DNA of 35,332 bases from Synechococcus sp. AG-670-A05. GTDB lineage: Bacteria; Cyanobacteriota; Cyanobacteriia; PCC-6307; Cyanobiaceae. Under the pieces are notes generated by a model. That model worked only from the letters and a program-made list of their open reading frames with translations, made no database searches and had not been told where the DNA came from. This document shows, in pieces, positions 20,710 through 35,332 of this stretch (position 1 is its first letter; every line of letters starts with the position of its first letter). A program made the translations under genes and the position numbers. The stretch spans positions 1 through 35,332 of the forward strand of contig QCSJ01000011.1 in the NCBI GenBank assembly GCA_003211535.1, in the 5' to 3' direction.

Positions 20710-21700
20710 GCTCGCCTCCGTTCCACTGGAGCTTTCCGGGTCCGGCACAGCGCGGCGGCTGGAGTGCCGCGTGCTGCAGTCCCCCCTAGCCGGTGTCAGC
20801 GACCGGGTGTTCCGGCATCTGGTGCGCCGCTGGGCGCCGGATGCGCTGCTGTTCACCGAGATGGTGAATGCCACCAGCCTTGAGCTGGGCTTCGGGCGCG
20901 GCAAGGTGGAAGAGCTCAGCGAAGAGCAGGGGCCGATCGGCGTGCAGCTATTCGATCACCGTCCTTGCGCCATGGCTGAAGCGGCCCGCCGGGCGGAAGA
21001 CGCTGGGGCGTTCCTGATCGACATCAACATGGGTTGCCCGGTGCGCAAGATCGCCCGCAAGGGCGGAGGATCCGGACTGATCCGCAATCCCGATCTCGCC
21101 AGCCGGATCATCGAGGCCGTAGCCCGTGCCGTGCGGTTGCCCGTCACGGTGAAGACACGACTCGGCTGGTGCGGCAGTGACGCCGACCCTCAGACCTGGT
21201 GCCGGCAATTGCAGGATGCCGGTGCGCAGTTGCTCACCCTGCACGGGCGAACTCGCGAACAGGGGTTCAAGGGCAAAGCTGACTGGGCTGCCATCGCCGC
21301 GGTCAAGCAGACCCTCACGATCCCCGTGATTGCCAACGGTGACATCAACACGCCTGAGGATGCCCAGCGCTGCCTGACCGAGACCGGCGCCGATGGCGTC
21401 ATGGTGGGTCGCGGAACCATGGGAGCCCCCTGGCTAGTGGGGCAGATCGATGCGGCGCTCAAGGGCCTGTCGGTCCCTGCCACCCCTGGCCCCGCAGCTC
21501 GCCTAGCCCTGGCCCGGGAGCAGCTACTGGCACTAGTGGAGGCCCGCGGTGACCAAGGACTGCTGATCGCCAGAAAGCACATGGGCTGGACCTGCACTGG
21601 CTTCCCAGGAGCGCCGCAGTTGCGCCATGCCCTGATGCGCGCCTTAACCCCGCAGGAAGCCCTAGCCTTGTTGGACAATCAACGCTTGGCCCTGGAGTGA
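20699..21700 (+). CDS. dus: tRNA-dihydrouridine synthase
   Basis: LQSPLAGVSDRVFRHLV, TEMVNATSLELG, DINMGCPVRKIARKGGGSGLIRNP, LTLHGRTREQGFKGKADW, IPVIANGDINTPEDA, DGVMVGRGTMGAPWL. Confidence 0.95.
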   Translation: MVIMLASVPLELSGSGTARRLECRVLQSPLAGVSDRVFRHLVRRWAPDALLFTEMVNATSLELGFGRGKVEELSEEQGPIGVQLFDHRPCAMAEAARRAEDAGAFLIDINMGCPVRKIARKGGGSGLIRNPDLASRIIEAVARAVRLPVTVKTRLGWCGSDADPQTWCRQLQDAGAQLLTLHGRTREQGFKGKADWAAIAAVKQTLTIPVIANGDINTPEDAQRCLTETGADGVMVGRGTMGAPWLVGQIDAALKGLSVPATPGPAARLALAREQLLALVEARGDQGLLIARKHMGWTCTGFPGAPQLRHALMRALTPQEALALLDNQRLALE

Positions 21701-23757
21701 GCCTGTTGCTGCTGCTCTGGCCTCTGGCGTTAACCCAGCGACCGGAGGCGGAGTCTCCGCTCTGGGCCCGACGCAGCTTGATCCTATTGATCAGCGGCCT
21801 GACCCTTCGTTATCTCTACTGGCGCTGCACCGCCAGCCTTAATCTGGACAGCCCTTTGTCCGCCGGCCTCAGCGGCCTGTTACTGCTGGCGGAGAGCTGG
21901 TTGCTGATCACCGGTCTGCTACCGCTATGGCTGGCCTGGCGCCGCTTCCCCGATCGACGCCTGGAAGTCCAGACACGCAATCAGGACTGGCAGGCCTCGA
22001 ACTGGAGGCCCCATGTGGACGTCCTGGTGCCCACATGCGGCGAGCCGCTGGCGGTGCTGCAGCGCTCGCTTCTCGGCTGCAGGCAGCAGAGCTATCCCCA
22101 CACCACCATCTGGGTGCTCGATGACAGTGGCCGTAGAGAGGTGAGGCAACTGGCCAAGCGACTGGGCTGCCGCTATCGGCATCGTCCCGTACGACGGAAT
22201 GCCAAGGCAGGCAACCTCAATGCCGGCCTCCGTTGCTGTCATGGCGAGCTGGTAGCCGTGTTCGATGCGGACTTCATCCCCCAGCATCGCTTCCTGGAAC
22301 GCAGCATCGGCTTTCTGCTGGAGCCCGACGTGTCGCTGCTGCAGACACCGCAGTCGTTCATAAACGCCGATCCGGTGATGCGCAACCTGCATATGGAATC
22401 GTGGCTCTTGCCGGATGAGGAGAGCTTCTACAGCTGGATCGAACCGGTGCGGGACGGCTGGGGGGCCGTGGTCTGTGCCGGCACCGCTTTCATCGTGCGC
22501 CGACGCGCCCTCGATCAGGTGGGTGGCTTCGTTGAGGGTGCTCTTTCGGAAGACTTCGTCACCGGCATCGCCTTGCGAGAACAAGGCTGGAGGTTGCTTT
22601 ACCTGCAGCAGAAACTCAGTGCTGGACTCGCCGCAGAATCCATGGAGGACTTTGTGCGGCAGCGGCAACGTTGGGCCAACGGCACCCTGCAGAGCCTGCG
22701 CTTGCCCCAGGGGCCTCTGCGAGCACACGGCCTCAGCCTGGGCCAACGACTTGCATATCTTGAAGGCGTGGTCCACTGGCTGAACAACCTGCCCAGGTTG
22801 ATGCTGATGCTGATGCCGCTGAGCTACGGCCTGCTTGGCATTGCACCCATTCTTTTGAACCAGCAGGCGATCATCGAATTGATCCTGCCTCTATGGGGCA
22901 CGGTGCTGCTCAGCGTCGGCTGGCTGAACCGCAACAGCCGCTCAGCCCTGCTGACTGAACTGACCAGCTGGGTGCTCACAGTTCCGCTGGTGGCGACCCT
23001 GATCAGCCACATGTTCGGATCCTCCATGGGTTTCCGGGTCACCCCCAAGCATCGCCAGCCGTCCCAGGGGGGATGGGCCTGGTTTCTGGCGCTTCCCCTG
23101 ATCCTGCTCAGCCTGTTCAACCTGGCGAATCTGCTATCGCTGGTCCAAAAGCTGATGCTTCAGGGCTGGGGCGAACTCGGGCCACTGCAGCTGGGGCTGG
23201 TCTGGGCCGTTCTCAATCTGCTGGGCACCCTGGTGGCCCTGCGCGCTTGCTGGGACCCGCCCCAGTGGGATCCCTCACCCTGGCTCAGCATGAATCACCC
23301 CGCCGAGCTGACCGCTGCCGAAGGTCATCGCCATCCGTGCCGGATCACCGCCATCAGCGAGAACGGCGTTGAGCTGGCCTTCGCCACGGAGCTCCCGCCC
23401 CTGGTGGCCACCAGTCAGCTGAGTTGGAGTGCCGAAGTACTTACTCTGCCGGTCGTGTTGCGGCAAACACAACAGCACCGGGCGGCTTTTGACTGGGGAG
23501 ACCTTAGTCAGCGGCAGGAGCACAGCCTCATTCGCTGGTTGTTCTGCAGCGATGGGATCTGGCCGGAACGGCAGCCGAAGCCAGAGCTACTCGGACTAAC
23601 AATGTTGTGTCGCGGTTTGTTGCTGGGACGTCCATCCATCGGCCCTTTTCAGAGATGTCTCGTCACAAGACGGAACCGTGGACCCATACGACAGATGGAC
23701 GGGAGTCCACAAGAGAGATTTAGCTATATACAAGCCATAGAGACCCTGTACCCATGA
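21697..23757 (+). CDS. Cellulose-synthase-like membrane GT2 glycosyltransferase with PilZ-like C-terminal segment
   Basis: N-terminal TM helices, VDVLVPTCGEPLAVLQ, VLDDSG, VFDADFIPQ, TxAIVRRRAL, ALSEDFVTGIALREQGW, QRQRWANGTLQSLRLP (QxxRW), then further TM helices. HRHPCRITAISENGVELAF resembles a PilZ core. Confidence 0.9.
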   Translation: MSLLLLLWPLALTQRPEAESPLWARRSLILLISGLTLRYLYWRCTASLNLDSPLSAGLSGLLLLAESWLLITGLLPLWLAWRRFPDRRLEVQTRNQDWQASNWRPHVDVLVPTCGEPLAVLQRSLLGCRQQSYPHTTIWVLDDSGRREVRQLAKRLGCRYRHRPVRRNAKAGNLNAGLRCCHGELVAVFDADFIPQHRFLERSIGFLLEPDVSLLQTPQSFINADPVMRNLHMESWLLPDEESFYSWIEPVRDGWGAVVCAGTAFIVRRRALDQVGGFVEGALSEDFVTGIALREQGWRLLYLQQKLSAGLAAESMEDFVRQRQRWANGTLQSLRLPQGPLRAHGLSLGQRLAYLEGVVHWLNNLPRLMLMLMPLSYGLLGIAPILLNQQAIIELILPLWGTVLLSVGWLNRNSRSALLTELTSWVLTVPLVATLISHMFGSSMGFRVTPKHRQPSQGGWAWFLALPLILLSLFNLANLLSLVQKLMLQGWGELGPLQLGLVWAVLNLLGTLVALRACWDPPQWDPSPWLSMNHPAELTAAEGHRHPCRITAISENGVELAFATELPPLVATSQLSWSAEVLTLPVVLRQTQQHRAAFDWGDLSQRQEHSLIRWLFCSDGIWPERQPKPELLGLTMLCRGLLLGRPSIGPFQRCLVTRRNRGPIRQMDGSPQERFSYIQAIETLYP

Positions 23758-25040
23758 CAGTCGTCGCCATCGTGGACACTGGAATCAATCTTCAGCATGT
23801 TGATTTTCAGAATAAACTCTGGATAAATCCGTTTGAAATAGCCGGCAACGGTGTCGACGACGACGACAATGGAGTCGTTGATGATATTCACGGTTACGAC
23901 GTAATCACAGGTCAAGCTCTTTCAAGGGTTGAAGACCCTGAGGGTCACGGCACTCACGTCGCGGGAATCGTTACGACGACCTCACCCGGGGCTGAAATCA
24001 TGGGAGTTCGACTGCTAGATGCCAGCGGTGGCGGCAGCCTCTCTGATGCAATCGATGCTTGGAGCTACGCACTAATTCATGGGGCACAAGTTATTAACAA
24101 CAGCTGGGGAGCTCTTGGCGTCAAGCCATCAAACGTTGAATTTCTCAAAGAAGTGATTGCCATCGGTGAAGAGGAGTTTGACGCGGTGTTCATTGCAGCC
24201 GCTGGCAATGAATCCACAAATACCGACCGCGTACCCAATACTCCGTCCAACGCGCCAGGAATGATCTCAATTGGAGCTTCTACCAGAAAAGGTAATCCGG
24301 CCAGATTTTCCAACTACGGCCAAACAACCGTGGACATTTTCGCTCCTGGCGTCAACATTCTCAGCGCTGACGCATTTTCAACCACAGGAAGGCTCCGGCT
24401 CAGCGGGACCTCCATGGCGTCTCCTGTTGTCGCCGGGGCTGCAGCCACTCTCCTCGATCGCCAGCCCTTGGCCACGCCAGCAACGATCAAGCAGCAAATC
24501 CTCCAGAATGTTGTGCCAAGACGTCGGCTGACGTCATTGTCAGTAACGGGTGGAGTTCTATCCAATGAATTCACAGCACCATTCACCAGATCACTACGTC
24601 AAAACAAAAAGATGAACTCAACCAACCCAAATTCCATTAATGAGGGTACGAATCCAGATACAGGCACAGCAACGTCTAAGAAATCATCTCCAGGCAAGAA
24701 AAACTTCAAGAAAATCATCTGCATCTTGGACCAACCGCTTAAAGATGAGAAAATGGATATTTGGAACGAATTAATTGCCGAGCCTTACACTAAAAAAGTC
24801 GCTTGGCCGGAGGCTTTTAGCGACCGAATCTGCGTCTTAACAGTTCGCAAACGCCACCGAGGCAAATCTGATCGGAAAGATGTCATCAGATCCATGCGTT
24901 CATCCGGACATTTCGAGTCAGTCGAGTGGGATCGCAAAATTGGCATCACCACCATGAGTTCTGACTCACATAACAGCGACCTTGGCTCTTCGACAGCAAC
25001 AATTCCGACAATTACCGACCCAAACTTCTCTTTGATCTGA
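23754..25040 (+). CDS. Subtilase (S8) peptidase with no N-terminal signal or propeptide
   Basis: Catalytic motifs: VVAIVDTGINLQHVDF (Asp8), EGHGTHVAG (His65), FIAAAGNES (Asn152), LSGTSMASPVVAGAAA (Ser220). ATGA overlap with the upstream GT. In-frame stop TAG at 23721-23723 blocks N-terminal extension. Confidence 0.93.
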   Translation: MTVVAIVDTGINLQHVDFQNKLWINPFEIAGNGVDDDDNGVVDDIHGYDVITGQALSRVEDPEGHGTHVAGIVTTTSPGAEIMGVRLLDASGGGSLSDAIDAWSYALIHGAQVINNSWGALGVKPSNVEFLKEVIAIGEEEFDAVFIAAAGNESTNTDRVPNTPSNAPGMISIGASTRKGNPARFSNYGQTTVDIFAPGVNILSADAFSTTGRLRLSGTSMASPVVAGAAATLLDRQPLATPATIKQQILQNVVPRRRLTSLSVTGGVLSNEFTAPFTRSLRQNKKMNSTNPNSINEGTNPDTGTATSKKSSPGKKNFKKIICILDQPLKDEKMDIWNELIAEPYTKKVAWPEAFSDRICVLTVRKRHRGKSDRKDVIRSMRSSGHFESVEWDRKIGITTMSSDSHNSDLGSSTATIPTITDPNFSLI

Positions 25041-25042
25041 GA

Positions 25043-25837
25043 TCAAGGCAAGACGTCTGGCCAAGCCTGACGTATCAATAGCAATGAAAAATATGGCCTC
25101 GACGAGGCCATTACATTTTCAGCATTTTCGATAGTTTGGTTGTGCCAACCAACTCTTTCTGCAAAAAGGGAGCTTTTTAGGAGGTTCTTCTCGTCCAGAA
25201 GTCCCCTCACCCATCTCCAACGATGACCGAGTTTCATCAATGCGAGAACACGAGACCGCCGTGCTGCTTCAGCAAGTTCTGAAGCAAGGTCGTCAGGTCG
25301 ATCTGGGCATGGCATCACGAGAATCTGGTCCTGTTGCAGCGCGAGGGGCCAGGATGCCGCTGCGGCAGCAGCAGAAATGGCTGTGATGCCGGGGATCACC
25401 CGCGTGGGGCAATCGGGATGCCGCTGCTTCAGCGCCAGCAGGACATAACTGCCAGTAGCGAACAGGGAGGCATCTCCCTCACAGAGCAGTACCACCGCCT
25501 GCCCACCGCTCACTTCAGCGGCGAGGACATCCGCCGCTCGGTACCAGGCCTCTTGCCGGGGAGCCGCCGCCGCCGCCATGGGAAACAGCAAGGGAAGCTG
25601 CCGCTGCTGCGGACGGATCCACCGGGACGCAATGGTGGCAGCCATGCTGGCTGCCCCCTCGCGAGCAACCGGTGTCGCCACCACATCGGCCTGCTCGATC
25701 GCGCGAATGGCCGCGATCGTCAACAACTCGGGATCGCCGGGGCCAACTCCTACCAGCGTGAGTCCGGGAGGAACGGGCGGGTTGATGATGGACAGCGGAA
25801 CGGTCCTCCGGAAGGCGGAAATGAGTCGTCTCAGCAT
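25043..25837 (-). CDS. cobI: Precorrin-2 C20-methyltransferase
   Basis: LTLVGVGPGDPELLTIAAIRAIEQADVVATP, QAVVLLCEGDASLFATGSYVLLAL, TRVIPGITAISAAAAAASWPLA. Start taken at the ATG encoding MLRRLISAF; exact start uncertain. Confidence 0.85.
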   Translation of the reverse strand: MLRRLISAFRRTVPLSIINPPVPPGLTLVGVGPGDPELLTIAAIRAIEQADVVATPVAREGAASMAATIASRWIRPQQRQLPLLFPMAAAAAPRQEAWYRAADVLAAEVSGGQAVVLLCEGDASLFATGSYVLLALKQRHPDCPTRVIPGITAISAAAAAASWPLALQQDQILVMPCPDRPDDLASELAEAARRSRVLALMKLGHRWRWVRGLLDEKNLLKSSLFAERVGWHNQTIENAENVMASSRPYFSLLLIRQAWPDVLP

Positions 25838-27296: not shown

Positions 27297-27352
27297 TCTG
27301 GAACGATCAACTGTTCTCCCTGTGCTGAAATACCACCACCTTTTTGGGGATT

Positions 27353-28294
27353 GTGAGTCAACCTTCGCGCCGCAAAGGAATTATTTTGGCCGGGGGCACT
27401 GGCACGCGTTTGCACCCGATCACCCAGGCAGTCAGCAAGCAACTGCTGCCGGTGTACGACAAGCCTATGATCTATTACCCGCTTAGCACCTTGATGCTGG
27501 CGGGTATTCGTGAGGTGTTGATCATCACCACCCCCCACGATCAGGAGGCATTTCAGCGATTGCTTGGAGATGGTAACCGCTGGGGAATGACCATCGAATA
27601 CGCCGTCCAGCCCAGCCCGGACGGGTTGGCTCAGGCTTTCATTATTGGAGCTGAGTTTCTGGATGGAGCACCCACAGCCCTGGTGTTGGGGGACAACCTG
27701 TTCCACGGTCACGACTTGGTGCCGCAGTTGGTTAGGAGCGATGGGCGGGACAAAGGTGCGACGGTTTTTGCTTATCCAGTAAGCGACCCTGAGCGCTATG
27801 GCGTTGCGGAATTCGATGCCGATGGACGTGTGCTGAGTATTGAAGAGAAGCCCCAGCAGCCGAAAAGTCGCTATGCCGTAACGGGACTTTATTTCTATGA
27901 CTCCACGGTGGTGGATCGAGCCCGACAGGTGCAGCCCTCAGCCCGCGGTGAGATTGAAATCACTGATCTTAATCAGATGTATCTGGATGACGGCCAACTC
28001 AAGGTGGAATTGATGGGACGTGGAATGGCCTGGCTCGACACTGGCACCTGCGACTCCCTCAACGATGCCGGTGGCTACATCCGCACGCTGGAGCACCGCC
28101 AGGGCCTCAAGGTGGGCTGCCCGGAAGAGGTGGCCTGGCGTCAGGATTGGATTACCGGTGCGCAACTGGAGTCCCTGGCGCGGCCCCTGAAGAAGAGTGG
28201 CTACGGCACATACCTATTGCAGTTGCTCGAGGAAAGCCTCAGTGATCACGCAGCCTTGCAGAGCAGCCTGGAGGTGCCGGCACATGCAGGTTGA
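27353..28294 (+). CDS. rfbA: Glucose-1-phosphate thymidylyltransferase
   Basis: [93 protein letters not shown] start at 27353 likely. Confidence 0.97.
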
Positions 28295-28874
28295 TCAGCT
28301 GCAGTGCCCTCAAGGGATGATCATCAAAGGGCCCTTGCTGATCAGCCCACAGGCCTTCGGCGATGAGCGAGGCTGGTTTTATGAAAGCTGGAATCAGCGC
28401 AAATTTGATCGGGCCATGGGAGAGGCGGTGGTGTTTTCCCAGGACAATCACTCTCGCTCTGTGCAAGGGGTTATGCGGGGACTTCATTACCAACTCTCCC
28501 CGGAGCCTCAGGCCAAGCTGGTGCGAGCCAGCATCGGTGAGATTTTTGATGTGGCAGTTGACATCCGCCAGGGTTCAGCCACATACGGGCGGTGGGTGGG
28601 TGCCCACTTGAGTGCGGAAAACAAGCAGCAGCTATGGGTGCCAGAGGGCTTTGCCCATGGATTTCTGACCCTGAGCGCCGTGGCTGAAGTGCAGTACAAG
28701 GCCAGGGGTTTCTGGAACAAGGCCTGCGAACGCGCCATCCGCTGGGACGACACAACGATCGGCATCCAATGGCCCTTAGATCAGCTCGGAAGAGCTGAAC
28801 TGAGCCTGTCGGGCAAGGATGCAGACGCCCCGACGCTGGATCAAGCCAAGGCAGCTGGAGAGATCTTCCAATGA
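28284..28874 (+). CDS. rfbC: dTDP-4-dehydrorhamnose 3,5-epimerase
   Basis: [75 protein letters not shown]. Overlaps the rfbA 3' end. Confidence 0.96.
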
Positions 28875-29776
28875 AGGTGCTGCTCACCGGTGCAGCGGGA
28901 CAGCTGGGCCAGGCTTTGAGCGCAGCGGCCCCGGATTGGATGGAGCTGCTTCCCAGCTGCCGCGACGGTAGGAACGGTCTGTTGGCCCTCGATCTTTCCG
29001 ACGCCACTGCGTGCAGAAAGGCAGTGGAGGAACACCGCCCCGACTGGGTGCTGAATGCCGGTGCTTACACCGCCGTTGACAAGGCAGAAGCAGAGCCGGA
29101 GCTGGCACATGCCGTGAATGGAGGTGCCCCACGTGCTTTGGCGGACGCGATCCGCGAGCACGGCGGCAGAATGTTGCAGCTGAGCACCGATTTTGTATTC
29201 AACGGTCGGCAGGGATCGCCCTACCGGGTGGGTCAAAGCCGTGATCCATTGGGGGTTTACGGCGCCAGCAAAGCCAGCGGTGAAGAGGCTGTGGAGGAGC
29301 TGCTTGGTACCAGTGGCCAAGGGGTGGTGCTGCGTACCAGCTGGGTGATGGGTCCTGTGGGCAAAAACTTTGCGCTCACGATGCTGCGGCTGCATCGCGA
29401 CAAAGAGGCGTTGGGGGTGGTGGCCGATCAAGTGGGCTGCCCGAGCAGCACCTTGAACCTGGCCAAGGCTTGCTGGAGGGTGATCAGTGGCAGCAGCGAA
29501 GGAATGCCCCCCCCCCTGTTGCATTGGTGTGATGGTGGTGCCGCCAGTTGGTACGACGTATCGGTAGCGGTGGGTGAGCTGGCTGTGGAGCTGGGCCTAC
29601 TGAAAAGTGCCGCCAAGGTCAATCCAATCAGCACCGCCGACTACCCAACCCCAGCAACCCGGCCGGGCTATTCGCTTCTGGATTGCCAGGGCAGCCGAGC
29701 GGCGCTGAAGCTCGAGGCCCAGCCCTGGCGTGCAGCCCTCAGGGATGTGCTGCAGGCCATCCCCACGAACCCTTGA
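28871..29776 (+). CDS. rfbD: dTDP-4-dehydrorhamnose reductase
   Basis: [84 protein letters not shown]. Confidence 0.96.
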   Translation: MKVLLTGAAGQLGQALSAAAPDWMELLPSCRDGRNGLLALDLSDATACRKAVEEHRPDWVLNAGAYTAVDKAEAEPELAHAVNGGAPRALADAIREHGGRMLQLSTDFVFNGRQGSPYRVGQSRDPLGVYGASKASGEEAVEELLGTSGQGVVLRTSWVMGPVGKNFALTMLRLHRDKEALGVVADQVGCPSSTLNLAKACWRVISGSSEGMPPPLLHWCDGGAASWYDVSVAVGELAVELGLLKSAAKVNPISTADYPTPATRPGYSLLDCQGSRAALKLEAQPWRAALRDVLQAIPTNP

Positions 29777-29781
29777 TAACG

Positions 29782-30852
29782 ATGACCAACTCAATGCCGA
29801 CTGCTGCAGAACTACTGGGATCTCGCCGGCGGGTCCTGGTGACCGGTGGAGCCGGCTTCATCGGTGGGGCAGTTGTCCGCCGCCTGCTACGCGATACCGA
29901 CGCCACAGTGTTCAATCTCGACAAGATGGGCTATGCCAGCGATCTGACGTCGATTGAGGAGGTGCTGACGAGCCTCAACGATGGAGCAGATGAGCGCCAT
30001 GTCCTGCAAAAGCTGGATCTTGTCGACGCAAAGGCCGTGAGAGAAGCAGTGCAAAAGGCGGATCCCGATCTGGTGATGCACCTGGCAGCCGAAAGTCATG
30101 TGGATCGATCGATTACAGGCCCTGGTGTATTCATCGAGAGCAATGTGACCGGGACCTACAACCTGCTGCAAGCGGTCAGGGAGCATGTCGATGGATTAAG
30201 TGGAGAACGACGAGACAACTTCCGGCTGCATCACATCAGCACCGATGAGGTGTTCGGCTCTCTCGGGGGAGAAGGTCGCTTTTCTGAAACAACCCCCTAT
30301 GACCCACGGAGTCCGTATTCATCCAGCAAAGCGGCTAGCGACCACCTGGTGAGCGCCTGGCATCACACCTATGGCCTGCCGGTCGTTTTAACCAATTGTT
30401 CCAACAATTACGGTCCGTGGCAATTCCCCGAGAAGCTGATTCCCGTGGTGACACTCAAAGCGGCAGCAGGTGAGTCAATCCCCTTGTATGGCGATGGGCT
30501 GAATGTGCGGGATTGGTTGTACGTGGAAGACCATGTTGATGCACTGCTCCTGGCCGCATGCAAAGGGGCATCAGGTCGTAACTACTGCGTTGGAGGCTAT
30601 GGAGAACGAACCAACAGTGAGGTAGTGGAGTGCATCTGCAGCCACATGGATCAATTACTACCATCCCAAAAACCACATTCCAAGTTAATACAAATGGTGA
30701 CTGATCGGCCGGGACACGACCGACGATACGCCATCAATCCACAAAGAATCGAATCTGAACTTGGGTGGAAACCACGCCACGATTTCCCTACAGCAATAGC
30801 CAAAACTGTCGAGTGGTACGTCTCACATTACGCGAAAAAGACCAGTAAGTAG
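29782..30852 (+). CDS. rfbB: dTDP-glucose 4,6-dehydratase
   Basis: RVLVTGGAGFIGGAVVRRLL, MHLAAESHVDRSITGPGVFIESNVTGTYNLLQA, HISTDEVFGSLG, YSSSKAASDHLV, TNCSNNYGPWQFPEKLIPVV. Confidence 0.97.
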   Translation: MTNSMPTAAELLGSRRRVLVTGGAGFIGGAVVRRLLRDTDATVFNLDKMGYASDLTSIEEVLTSLNDGADERHVLQKLDLVDAKAVREAVQKADPDLVMHLAAESHVDRSITGPGVFIESNVTGTYNLLQAVREHVDGLSGERRDNFRLHHISTDEVFGSLGGEGRFSETTPYDPRSPYSSSKAASDHLVSAWHHTYGLPVVLTNCSNNYGPWQFPEKLIPVVTLKAAAGESIPLYGDGLNVRDWLYVEDHVDALLLAACKGASGRNYCVGGYGERTNSEVVECICSHMDQLLPSQKPHSKLIQMVTDRPGHDRRYAINPQRIESELGWKPRHDFPTAIAKTVEWYVSHYAKKTSK

Positions 30853-30857
30853 AAAAG

Positions 30858-33230
30858 ATGCAAAGTCAAACCAACAAATACCAGATCATTAGACAAGATT
30901 GGGTTCGATCCAACATACGATTCATCAATAACGGACAATACTACGTAGACCAAGCGGATGGATACTTCGAAACACGAAAAGGACTACCCAAAGGCTATTA
31001 CACACTTCGCCTGTCGATTAATGCAGAAAACAGAGGCATAGTTTGCTCAGTTTCCATAGAGCCAGTCGGCACCAACAAAATATCGAATAAAACATTCATG
31101 GTACCTGTCCTGAACGCAGAAACAGATCAATGCCTAACCTTACCAATAGTCCTCACGCAAAGAAGCAGAATAAGAATCAAACCGAATTGCCAACCAGGGA
31201 TCATCGAAACAGCCTTCTCAATATTACAAACAAACTCCAATACATTACTCACTCTCTTGAGACAATGGACGACAAGGAAGCCCAAGGAGAGTGACAAATT
31301 AGCCAACAATGAAGGCCAGTCAACTCAACAAGAAATTTCCTGGCGCACGGAACAGATGTACAGAATGAAACAGGTAAGACATCAAGCCTGGCCAAAAGAA
31401 CTATTGCCCGAAGGCAACAAAAGCGATATCGATAAAAAATACAACGCCTACTTGAATGAGCTCGAGCCATTACTCGAGCATGATGCAGACACAATCAAAC
31501 AATGGCTAGACCTAAATCGGGATGCACCGCTAATAAGCATCATCGTTCCAACCTACAACACAAACAGCACTCATTTGCGAGAATGCATCGAAAGTGTACG
31601 ACGTCAACGATATCAAAATTGGGAACTCTGCATCAGCGATGACTGTTCAAGCTCAAAACATATTCATAGTATCCTAAGAGATTATCAATCAAGAGATCAT
31701 CGAATCAAGCTAATCATTCGAAAAAGCAATGGCCACATATGTAAGGCGAGCAATGATGCACTCAACTTGGCAACAGGCGAGTATGTAGCACTATTAGATC
31801 ACGATGACATACTCTCAGACAACGCTCTCTATTGGGTTGCACGTGAATTACAGAAAAAACCTTATGCCAACCTCATCTACAGCGATGAAGACAAAATCGA
31901 CGACAATGGAGCACGTTCATGCCCCCATTTCAAACCTGCATTTAACCTGGACTTACTACTTTCTTATAATTTTATTTCCCACCTTGGTGTCTACAGAAGG
32001 GATGTCATCACCAAGATTGGTGGATTTAGAGCAGGCTTAGAGGGAAGTCAAGACCATGACCTTGCACTACGAACAGTCCTCGAGTCTTCATCGGATCAAA
32101 TTGTCCACATCCCCAGAGTCTTGTATCATTGGCGCGCTCACCCAGAATCAACAGCTAGCACCCCGGACAGCAAAGATTACACAACCGAGAGCGGCCTTAA
32201 GGCTGTGCAGCATTACTTGGATAAACAGCATGAACGAGGTGGCGTAGAAGCAACAGCCAGAGTACAAGCCAAAAATCGCTTTTACTGTCAATGGCAAATG
32301 CCCAAAGAACAACCATCGGTGGAGTTAATTATCCCTACTCGAGATCAAGCGGAAGTTTTAAAACTTGCAATCAATTCAATTATAAGCAAAACAGATTACC
32401 AAGACTATACCATCACAATCGTCGATAATCAAAGCACACAATCCTCCACTAGGAAACTTTTCGAAAAAATAACAGCCAAACATCCTGAAAAAATAAAAAT
32501 AATCAAATACAACAAGAAATTCAATTATTCGGCTATTAATAACTTTGCGGTTGCCAGGTCAAGAGCAGACATCATAGTGTTGGTCAATAATGATGTTGAG
32601 GTGATTTCGAAAAACTGGCTCAGCGAAATGGTATCCCATGCAAGTAGGCCAGACGTGGGTTGCGTCGGGGCAAAGTTATATTATTCAAATGGGACAATTC
32701 AGCACGGTGGAGTCATCATTGGCATCGGTCAAGTGGCCGGCCATGCACATAAATACTTCCCGGGAGACAGTCCCGGTTATGTGGACAGACTTCAATACGC
32801 ACAGCAGGTGACAGCTGTAACAGCTGCGTGCCTAGCCATCAGAAGAAATATTTATAACAATGTTGGAGGACTGAACGAACAAGATCTAACAATCGCATTC
32901 AATGATATTGATTTTTGCCTCAGAGTTCACGCAAGAGGATTTCGAAATATATTCGCACCAAAGGCCGAGTTATACCACCACGAATCTATATCTCGTGGCA
33001 GCGAAGACTCACCTGAAAAGCAAAAAAGATTCAAGAGGGAGATCGACTATATGTTAAGGCAATATGATATACAAGATAACGAGGAGCTGCCTAGCGATAT
33101 ATTTTATAATCCAAATCTAACCAAGATACACGAAAATTTCGACATTAATACTTCACCTAAGAGCGTAAGCGACGCACTTGAGCTAAGATCAAACTATCGG
33201 ACATTCAGGAATTACTACCAACGCCAATAG
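30858..33230 (+). CDS. Family 2 glycosyltransferase with two tandem GT2 domains and an N-terminal extension
   Basis: Domain 1: PLISIIVPTYNTNSTHLRECIESVRRQRYQNWELCISDDCS...YVALLDHDD. Domain 2: SVELIIPTRDQAEVLKLAINSIISKTDYQDYTITIVDNQST...IIVLVNNDVEV, IAFNDIDFCLRVHARGFRNIFAPKAELYHHES. Confidence 0.93.
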   Translation: MQSQTNKYQIIRQDWVRSNIRFINNGQYYVDQADGYFETRKGLPKGYYTLRLSINAENRGIVCSVSIEPVGTNKISNKTFMVPVLNAETDQCLTLPIVLTQRSRIRIKPNCQPGIIETAFSILQTNSNTLLTLLRQWTTRKPKESDKLANNEGQSTQQEISWRTEQMYRMKQVRHQAWPKELLPEGNKSDIDKKYNAYLNELEPLLEHDADTIKQWLDLNRDAPLISIIVPTYNTNSTHLRECIESVRRQRYQNWELCISDDCSSSKHIHSILRDYQSRDHRIKLIIRKSNGHICKASNDALNLATGEYVALLDHDDILSDNALYWVARELQKKPYANLIYSDEDKIDDNGARSCPHFKPAFNLDLLLSYNFISHLGVYRRDVITKIGGFRAGLEGSQDHDLALRTVLESSSDQIVHIPRVLYHWRAHPESTASTPDSKDYTTESGLKAVQHYLDKQHERGGVEATARVQAKNRFYCQWQMPKEQPSVELIIPTRDQAEVLKLAINSIISKTDYQDYTITIVDNQSTQSSTRKLFEKITAKHPEKIKIIKYNKKFNYSAINNFAVARSRADIIVLVNNDVEVISKNWLSEMVSHASRPDVGCVGAKLYYSNGTIQHGGVIIGIGQVAGHAHKYFPGDSPGYVDRLQYAQQVTAVTAACLAIRRNIYNNVGGLNEQDLTIAFNDIDFCLRVHARGFRNIFAPKAELYHHESISRGSEDSPEKQKRFKREIDYMLRQYDIQDNEELPSDIFYNPNLTKIHENFDINTSPKSVSDALELRSNYRTFRNYYQRQ

Positions 33231-33235
33231 GCCAT

Positions 33236-33253
33236 ATGTTCTCTAAAGAACAT
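33236..33253. terminator. Hairpin between convergent genes (possible bidirectional terminator)
   Basis: Perfect inverted repeat ATGTTCT-CTAA-AGAACAT in the 25-bp gap between convergent stop codons. No T run, so termination is unproven. Confidence 0.35.
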
Positions 33254-33255
33254 CA

Positions 33256-34536
33256 TTAGCTGCCTGCCAAAAACTGAATCCATTTACTTCTAGATTTATC
33301 CAACGCTCTATCAAGCTCATGACTCGGACGCTCAAATAGTCCGTAAATATGATCTGCCAATGAGAGTAGATTGGCTAAATCAGGATTTTTTTCTAAAAAA
33401 GAGTCCCTAACAGAGGTACTCTTTGTACGATATAGAGAAGGTCTGAGGAAGGATTTAGCTTCAAGGGAAATCAATTCAGTAAAGCTCACGCCCCATAATA
33501 GGCCACAGGAATCTAAAATAGAATCAGGAGATTCAAGAAGCTGTTGATACGTGAAAACCATTCGAGAATAATGTCGCGACAGATATTCCGAGCGTAGAAC
33601 AGAACCGATCCACAGATGAAGAGCATGGCGGGATGATATATGCTCGGCTTTACATAAAGAAATAACAGATTCGACCGGGGGGCGCAATATCAATAGAAAA
33701 TCTAATTGCATAAGTGACCTATCAATACAGGGAATCATGCCCTCAAAAAGTATGCATAGACGTGGATCTTTCAGGACAAAATGGCTATCGATACTGTATA
33801 CATATTGCAGATCATTCCAAAAAGAATCAATCCACTCCACCGAATCCTTAGATTTCCACCAACCAGATGGCCAAGTGTAAAGTTCGGACCAATGACTATT
33901 CTGATCAGATAGAAATTTATCAGAAGAAGTCACTAAAGATTTCGATTCCCAATATCCCAAAAGATTGTTTTCTGTGGCACCTAAAGCATCAGTAGGCCCA
34001 GAGACACCTAAATTACCAAGTAATCCAGTTAGAGCTGATGTTCCACTACGATGCATACCCAAAACAACTGTCATTCTGTTAGGTAATGACCCATTAAATC
34101 TGCGACGATAGGAAATATAAAATAATTGGACACTGTGACTCAGTGTTGTATAGGATTCAGGCTGTAAAAAGAAATCACTAATCAGAAGAAAATCGTCCTC
34201 TGCTACGAATAATTCATGTAAGCGAATACAGAACAATTGTATTTTGTATTCAAATTGTAATTCTCTGCCGATAGAAAGATCATTCAAAGCACCAAGCATA
34301 TGAGTTGCACAATATCGAAGACGAGAATCAGTAAGAGAATTTCGATGTCCCATCAAGGGTGGATTCCAATCATCCCTTAACACCTGTATCGGCAAAAAAG
34401 AGCGTAAAATCTTCGCAAAATCACTATAGATCAAGCTATTATCAGTAGTCGCCGCAGAGTTTATTTTTTCCCAACGACCACATACATAATCATTCGTTAA
34501 AGTTCGGCATAATAGTAGTTGTTCTTCCTGATGCAT
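33256..34536 (-). CDS. Sulfotransferase-like protein
   Basis: P-loop-type PAPS-binding motif MTVVLGMHRSGTSALTGLLGNLGV, FVLKDPRLCILFEGMIPCI, FLLILRPPVESVISLCKAEHISSRHALHLW. Confidence 0.82.
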   Translation of the reverse strand: MHQEEQLLLCRTLTNDYVCGRWEKINSAATTDNSLIYSDFAKILRSFLPIQVLRDDWNPPLMGHRNSLTDSRLRYCATHMLGALNDLSIGRELQFEYKIQLFCIRLHELFVAEDDFLLISDFFLQPESYTTLSHSVQLFYISYRRRFNGSLPNRMTVVLGMHRSGTSALTGLLGNLGVSGPTDALGATENNLLGYWESKSLVTSSDKFLSDQNSHWSELYTWPSGWWKSKDSVEWIDSFWNDLQYVYSIDSHFVLKDPRLCILFEGMIPCIDRSLMQLDFLLILRPPVESVISLCKAEHISSRHALHLWIGSVLRSEYLSRHYSRMVFTYQQLLESPDSILDSCGLLWGVSFTELISLEAKSFLRPSLYRTKSTSVRDSFLEKNPDLANLLSLADHIYGLFERPSHELDRALDKSRSKWIQFLAGS

Positions 34537-34552
34537 TTAAAACTCCTAAATC

Positions 34553-35332
34553 CTACGAACCAGTAATCAGCTTTTGCATGGCGCCAATCTGAGCATTAGA
34601 ACACAACAAAAGCTGCTCTAACTCACGAACGCGAGCTGTTAGCGTTTTATTTCTTAAGTCAAAGTCTTTCATGTTTTCATTTAGCATAATATGCTGAAGA
34701 TTTTTTTCTGACAGATCAATACCCTCATGTTGGCCGAATTGCCAAAAGTGATTCATTATTTCTCTATTAGACATTTGTGAGAGATCTGGTCTCTGTGATC
34801 GATAGAATTCAAAAGGAAAGATAGATTGCAATAATTGAAGCGAAGGATCTTCCTCAGTTATTTCAGAAAAAGGAGTAGGCATCCGACGAACTCTTTTGTC
34901 CATCTGCTCAGCGACCTCTTTAAAATTAGACTGCGAAAGCCAGTGATTCATCAATTCGATATCTGCCATCTCCTTTAACTCGGGATATAATTCTCGATAC
35001 GCATCCGCATTGAATAATGCCAAAAGTCCTTGTTGATCCAACGAATTACGAATACTTTTTTCCATCTCCCTAGCAATCTCTCTAAAATCAGACTGCGAGA
35101 GCCAGTGATTCATCAATTCGATATCTGCCATCTCCTTTAACTCGGGACGTAATTCTCGATACGCATCAGCATTGAATAATGCCAAAAGTCCTTCTTGATC
35201 CAATGAATTACGAATACTTTTATTCATCTCCTTAGCAACCTCTCTAAAATTAGATTGAGAAAGCCAATGATTCATCAATTCGTCATCTGGCTTCTGCTTT
35301 AACTCGGGATATACTTCTCGATATATATCAGA
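34553..35332 (-). CDS. Repeat protein with 54-aa modules and C-terminal coiled coil; 5' end outside window
   Basis: Frame stays open to the window end (reads ...YREVYPELKQKPDDELMNHW). Repeats of ELMNHWLSQS(N/D)FRE(V/I)A(K/R)EM.KSIRNSLDQ.GLLALFNADAYREL.PELKEMADI, then a diverged unit and NKTLTARVRELEQLLLCSNAQIG. Confidence 0.75.
   Translation of the reverse strand, partial: SDIYREVYPELKQKPDDELMNHWLSQSNFREVAKEMNKSIRNSLDQEGLLALFNADAYRELRPELKEMADIELMNHWLSQSDFREIAREMEKSIRNSLDQQGLLALFNADAYRELYPELKEMADIELMNHWLSQSNFKEVAEQMDKRVRRMPTPFSEITEEDPSLQLLQSIFPFEFYRSQRPDLSQMSNREIMNHFWQFGQHEGIDLSEKNLQHIMLNENMKDFDLRNKTLTARVRELEQLLLCSNAQIGAMQKLITGS
34938..35332. repeat. 162-bp tandem repeat, about 2.4 units visible, continuing past the window
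   Basis: AGCCA(G/A)TGATTCATCAATTCG recurs at 34938, 35100 and 35262 (exact 162-bp spacing), with near-identical intervening sequence (ATATCTGCCATCTCCTTTAACTCGGGA...ATTCTCGATACGCATC.GCATTGAATAATGCCAAAAGTCCTT.TTGATCCAA.GAATTACGAATACTTTT). Confidence 0.92.

Follow-up and report, generated by a model that had tools for sequence, protein, structure and literature searches.

The window analysed here, that is, the whole 35,332-nucleotide stretch of Synechococcus sp. AG-670-A05 contig QCSJ01000011.1, contains the gene for an S8 peptidase, or subtilase, whose parts are collected in Table 1. The start codon of this gene overlaps the stop codon of a gene for a cellulose-synthase-like glycosyltransferase (21697-23757) in the four letters ATGA (23754-23757), which suggests either coupled translation or a recent junction. 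Both the open reading frame and the C-terminal segment at issue (residues 317-398) lie exactly where the original prediction had placed them.

Table 1. Parts of the window subtilase gene, by position in the window.
Feature	Positions	Strand	Basis
Whole gene, S8 peptidase of 428 aa, stop codon included	23754..25040	+	ORF; Peptidase_S8 match
Catalytic domain, residues 1-278	23754..24587	+	Pfam, alignments, AF2
Catalytic Asp D8	23775..23777	+	Invariant in 22 subtilases
Catalytic His H65	23946..23948	+	Invariant in 22 subtilases
Oxyanion Asn N152	24207..24209	+	Invariant in 22 subtilases
Catalytic Ser S220 (SGTSMASP)	24411..24413	+	Invariant in 22 subtilases
Hypervariable linker, residues 279-314 (predicted disorder 280-312)	24588..24695	+	6-17% identity; pLDDT <50
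C-terminal I9-like domain, residues 315-399	24696..24950	+	AF2, conservation, profile searches
b4 signature FESVEWD, residues 387-393	24912..24932	+	Alignments; hhalign register with N-terminal prodomains
I396-T399, proposed P4-P1 in the active-site cleft	24939..24950	+	D+3 to D+6; analogy with subtilisin propeptide ends; AF2; inference
Variable disordered tail, residues 400-428, ending ..NFSLI	24951..25037	+	pLDDT <50 at 402-428; 12-31% identity

A subtilase without an N-terminal propeptide

Residues 2-253 of the protein match Peptidase_S8 (PF00082, E 2.1e-45) in Pfam, and D8, H65, N152 and S220 are all invariant across the alignment of 22 subtilases, which accounts for the catalytic triad and the oxyanion Asn; from general knowledge of S8 peptidases we take D8 to be the catalytic Asp. 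A Foldseek search with the full-length AF2 model returned the S8 fold, with an E of 4.9e-27 to deseasin MCP-01 (3vv3), which at 36% identity is the closest solved catalytic domain among the matches listed. All of the matches listed for this model are to the catalytic domain, as is expected from a permuted order of domains. The match takes in the MCP-01 chain only from residue 45 onwards, the window subtilase being without that N-terminal part, and stops short of the C-terminal domain.

The N-terminus carries neither a signal peptide nor a propeptide, and the catalytic domain opens directly on the strand that bears the catalytic Asp. This architecture is shared by a close family of eight members from six genomes of the genus, to which the genome of the window also contributes a paralogue and G027 a tandem pair. 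All eight start at M-x-x-V-A-x-V-D-[ST]-G, and in each the reading frame is closed by a stop 3-33 codons before this Met, which leaves no in-frame room for a signal peptide and propeptide. The absence of an N-terminal propeptide, on which the original prediction had built, is thereby borne out, and a propeptide hidden by a frameshift or a wrong start can be ruled out on the same grounds together with the common start of the eight members. The stretch of about 44 residues with which the MCP-01 chain (3vv3) begins, and which other S8 mature domains also have, is missing from all eight.

The C-terminal domain and its distribution

The segment spanning residues 315-399 is the sole conserved part of the protein beyond the catalytic domain. 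It shares 56 and 55% identity with the two nearest relatives, as against 72 and 67% for the catalytic domain, 17 and 6% for the linker and 12 and 31% for the tail. Its dN/dS, measurable in a single sufficiently close pair, is 0.07 and equal to that of the catalytic domain. Six residues of the segment (L24, W35, P36, F39, F71 and D77 in segment numbering) are invariant in the eight members, each of which has kept the domain, and conservation among homologues was thus found where the original prediction had directed attention. We conclude that the domain is genuine and evolves under purifying selection; its conservation rules out sporadic C-terminal junk.

The domain extends well beyond the close family. 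Among 40 S8 genes from 34 genomes of the genus (a split gene being taken once and one short fragment omitted), 22 carry it, a count reached by starting from the C-terminal end of L052, another Synechococcus subtilase, and then collecting the S8 genes; in all 22 it lies C-terminal to the catalytic domain, that is, at the opposite end from the N-terminal location of I9. On the catalytic-domain tree the carriers form three groups, namely the window type, L052/L119 and proteins containing a PPC domain. The domains of the window type and of the long-protein group are homologous, since the hhalign score that joins them (34.8, probability 88.6%, E 2.7e-6) lies far beyond the maximum of 17.8 among 200 column shuffles. 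When the A4 profile of 17 members was run against 390 cyanobacterial genomes it found matches in nine, all of this genus; the matches are thus confined to one of 159 cyanobacterial genera, and each lies inside an S8 gene, with the proviso that distant versions elsewhere could escape the profile. The remaining 18 S8 genes of the genus are without the domain, and because the genus is also without PF05922, a recognisable prodomain is evidently not needed by all of its subtilases.

Filamentous cyanobacterial subtilases without the domain interleave with the PPC-containing group on the catalytic-domain tree. Most of them stop right after the catalytic domain, and L014 has a different tail. They were considered as possible donors of an N-terminal domain that was later relocated and were rejected, their N-termini giving no convincing match to either profile. 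Viral copies were likewise set aside, as the viral matches, with 24-45% identity, are confined to the catalytic domain.

Several carriers are built in unusual ways. The 1401-aa subtilase L119:1770-5975 consists of W-rich repeats, the catalytic domain, the I9-like domain and then RTX calcium repeats. In L104:1893-4472, L112:1269-4841 and L108:1343-3076 the PPC domain is N-terminal to the catalytic domain and the I9-like domain C-terminal to it; PPC stands for "pre-peptidase C-terminal," and accessory domains are usually found in the opposite order. An L052-type subtilase, L124:1503-3295 (G020:C1:1340005-1341194), is split between two frames that overlap (396 and 216 codons), apparently through a frameshift.

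Predicted fold, kinship and placement of the domain

The original prediction had described, by eye, a beta-alpha-beta-beta-alpha-beta pattern resembling I9, and had named disorder or another fold as the contrary outcome. AF2 predicts a ferredoxin-like fold with the I9 order of elements, both for the isolated domain modelled from the eight-sequence alignment (E4-9 H14-25 E30-34 E43-48 H55-67 E71-76) and for the full-length protein (b1 316-325, a1 330-342, b2 346-350, b3 359-364, a2 371-383, b4 387-397). When the PDB was searched with the domain in Foldseek, it brought up ferredoxin-like folds of a generic kind (ribosomal S6 permutants, the periplasmic domain of FtsX, HMA and Lrp/AsnC); none fell under E 1e-3, and I9 chains are absent from the 50 matches listed. 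As I9 has a ferredoxin-like fold too, this supports the fold and not the family. A search of the PDB with profile A1 gave nothing meaningful.

Sequence kinship to known prodomains is correspondingly faint. No match to Inhibitor_I9 (PF05922) was found in any of the eight members even at E 10, nor in any of the 59 genomes of relatives searched, and simple membership of that family is not supported. Against 22 myxobacterial I9 domains and BPN', the profile of the C-terminal domain reached a global hhalign score of 11.6 (null maximum 8.7), with the local score inside the null tail; the window group alone reached 10.87 globally (null maximum 10.19), again with the local score inside the null tail, and this comparison, its global score barely above the null, was not used as evidence. 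The best profile similarity is to the fervidolysin-type prodomains (PF22148), which are N-terminal where the Synechococcus domain is C-terminal. Against a set of these, drawn mostly from a Verrucomicrobiota search, the local score was 19.9 (null maximum 14.9) and the global score 18.8 (null maximum 9.1), and the alignment keeps the strands in register all the way from b1 to b4, the FExD/AEPN motifs included. However, ribosomal S6, a control of the same general fold, scored 19.3 locally and 7.2 globally against the same prodomains, and since it equals the local score we regard the similarity as suggestive; the window-type group alone gave no significant similarity to the PF22148-type prodomains. 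The HMM of the C-terminal domain also matches the N-terminal prodomain of L034 (Akkermansiaceae) with 14.5 bits, over a stretch ("..LIKKMHQSGLFEYVEPD") close to that of the window subtilase ("..VIRSMRSSGHFESVEWD"). Judged by its alignments, the FESVEWD of the window subtilase appears to be the counterpart of the V-x-x-V/I-E-x-D found in subtilase prodomains, and homology of the domain to S8 prodomains is plausible at the level of sequence; that it was relocated, as originally worded, we infer. The likeness to I9 consequently stands as regards predicted fold, order of elements and conservation, and falls short as regards PF05922, which gives no match, and profile similarity to I9, which is marginal.

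The models are more informative on where the domain may sit. Alone, it yielded one model with a pLDDT of 82.3 and four with just 42-55, while the full-length protein reached a pLDDT of 83.9 and a pTM of 0.83, with three models at 82-84 and blocks of the C-terminal domain at 84-96 (about 90); in these predictions the domain is better defined with the catalytic domain than without it. Simple arithmetic on the pTM (L = 428, d0 = 7.43, an error of 1-2 Å for the catalytic domain and 60 disordered residues at 25 Å) gives 0.64-0.70 if the C-terminal domain is undocked (15-25 Å), and 0.83 only if its error is about 3 Å or less. Because the observed value is attainable only with the domain placed rigidly, the summary confidence scores point to its being docked on the catalytic domain and are likewise our guide to the docked face. 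Residues 396-399 (80-83 of the domain) have a pLDDT <50 in isolation, and the full-length model places them in a block with a mean of 84; b4 also extends from 387-392 to 387-397, low confidence setting in only from 402. Segments 93-95 and 119-121 of the catalytic domain, which by our own alignment mapping we take to be the counterparts of the substrate-binding edge strands of subtilisin, are assigned as strands in the full-length model, as would be expected if another strand sat between them.

Chain ends, proposed mechanism and known systems

The propeptide chains of subtilisin (1spb_P and 1scj_B) end in "..YVEEDHxAHxY," six residues past the motif Asp, and 11 of the 22 Synechococcus carriers end at exactly this distance past their motif D/E (D+6). 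Their termini are FEMDSNVAAF, FQFDQPINLV, FEVDTQMQMI, LEKEQQFSIV, FEFDQTFTAL, FEFDQTYTIV, FEMDQQFSIV, FEVDQQFSIV, FEVEQKFSIV, FEFDQAWTVA and LELEQTWTVG; the members are related, so these are not 11 independent events, but the D+6 end is present in two catalytic lineages. Position D+3, which would correspond to P4, is hydrophobic in nearly all carriers. By analogy, then, the D+6 end of half of the carriers would be the position at which excised subtilisin propeptides end (P1), and both these ends and the model confidence are in keeping with a placement of D+3 to D+6 in the S4-S1 subsites of the protease. In the window group the chain continues for 4-33 residues beyond D+6, and in L119 the domain is followed by RTX calcium repeats (PF00353).

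We consider it probable that residues 315-399 are a C-terminal, cis-acting analogue of a prodomain, which covers the substrate-binding face with D+3 to D+6 in S4-S1 and keeps the enzyme inactive. This reading draws on the conservation of the domain, its exclusive linkage to S8 domains, the want of an N-terminal propeptide, the I9-type order of elements and the P1-like chain end in half of the relatives. The domain would fold back across the linker of ~35 residues and pack on the substrate-binding face, and b4 with residues 396-399 would insert between the edge strands (about G92-S95 and S117-A120) in the manner of substrate P4-P1. Cutting of either the tether or the domain would presumably end this inhibition in cis. 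Carriers ending at D+6 would require no cleavage; in the window type the tail would be lost through cleavage after about T399, and the domain would stay tethered until the linker, too, is cut. That the domain also assists the folding of the N-terminally truncated catalytic domain is a suggestion for which the case is nearly evenly balanced, and autocleavage after about T399 is one that we advance somewhat more tentatively. The tail itself (400-428) is proposed as the shed piece or as an export signal.

The same domain might instead be a structural, targeting or partner-binding module of a common ferredoxin-like fold that touches the catalytic domain without inhibiting it, the D+6 ends being a coincidence inherited by lineage. 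The many unrelated ferredoxin-like domains returned by Foldseek, the failure of Pfam to recognise an I9 signature and the mutual relatedness of the carriers with D+6 ends would all sit comfortably with such a module. We nevertheless think it unlikely, as the domain occurs only behind S8 catalytic domains across the 390 genomes, the D+6 end recurs in two catalytic lineages and the residues following b4 gain order in the AF2 model when the catalytic domain is present.

Least probable, indeed improbable, is that the conserved region serves chiefly as a signal for a type I (ABC) exporter that reads hydrophobic chain ends: the window type has no N-terminal signal, most chains do end hydrophobically (..FSLI, ..DVF, ..GLI, ..VLC, ..SIV), L119 has RTX repeats after the domain and type I substrates carry C-terminal signals (PMC4648471), but this leaves unexplained a folded domain of 85 residues that is predicted to be docked on the catalytic domain, the domain is internal in L119, the tails are poorly conserved and HlyD-profile matches occur in all 34 genomes. 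The HlyD profile was for this reason dropped as a marker of type I export. RTX repeats are present in L119 alone and not in the window subtilase, and exporter genes are found in genomes of the genus with no linkage to these proteases.

An export signal could, all the same, coexist with a cis-acting prodomain analogue. HlyA leaves its type I exporter C-terminus first (PMC4648471), and with export of this kind a prodomain at the C-terminus would come out ahead of the enzyme, as an N-terminal prodomain does on the Sec route. It is conceivable, if doubtful, that in this class of marine Synechococcus subtilases the inhibitor or chaperone is C-terminal for this very reason, a C-terminus ending at P1 then acting as a product inhibitor from the outset, with no cleavage required. 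The window subtilase may also have a cytosolic role.

The proposed prodomain analogue has partial counterparts among known subtilases. It resembles the N-terminal propeptide of subtilisin and Inhibitor_I9 (PF05922; 1spb_P, 1scj_B) in the order of its elements, its similar size and the E-x-D at the end of b4; unlike that propeptide it is C-terminal, goes unmatched by Pfam, shows profile similarity that is marginal at best, and in window-type chains extends beyond P1. We take the helper of Aeromonas ASP to be a separate protein. ASP has been named as a subtilase without a propeptide, and the 2022 survey of the family describes the N-terminal propeptide as an intramolecular chaperone with ASP as the exception (PMC9549277); Myxococcus PopC is controlled by a complex-forming partner, PopD (PMC6434023). 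In both systems the helper is separate, whereas the window subtilase would carry it in cis, as a C-terminal fusion. In the CspB protease of Clostridium the prodomain stays bound with P3-P1 in the active site (PMC3567191), and the principle proposed here, a prodomain retained on the enzyme as gatekeeper, is the same; the CspB prodomain, however, is N-terminal and cleaved off. In the open-licence literature searched, no subtilase with an I9-like domain at its C-terminus has been described to our knowledge. Should the proposed reading be true, a conserved family with a C-terminal prodomain-like inhibitor would imply that the position of the helper is not fixed, would raise the testable question of whether prodomain position tracks the direction of export, and would offer a supply of proteases inhibited in cis by a domain that already terminates at P1.

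As to its surroundings, the subtilase gene lies within a dip in G+C content (0.46-0.54 at 23500-25250, vs. about 0.60-0.66 on either side), and the neighbours of the family differ between genomes: a glycosyltransferase and a tetrapyrrole methylase in the window, an apparent psbA in G012, and an apparent dnaB with an AraC-type regulator in G022 and G023. From the dip and the varying neighbourhoods, it looks like a mobile accessory gene. Further along the window, beyond what by eye are apparent dTDP-sugar synthesis genes (27344-29776), the G+C content falls to 0.37-0.46 (30500-35332), as it might at the border of an island of surface-glycan genes.
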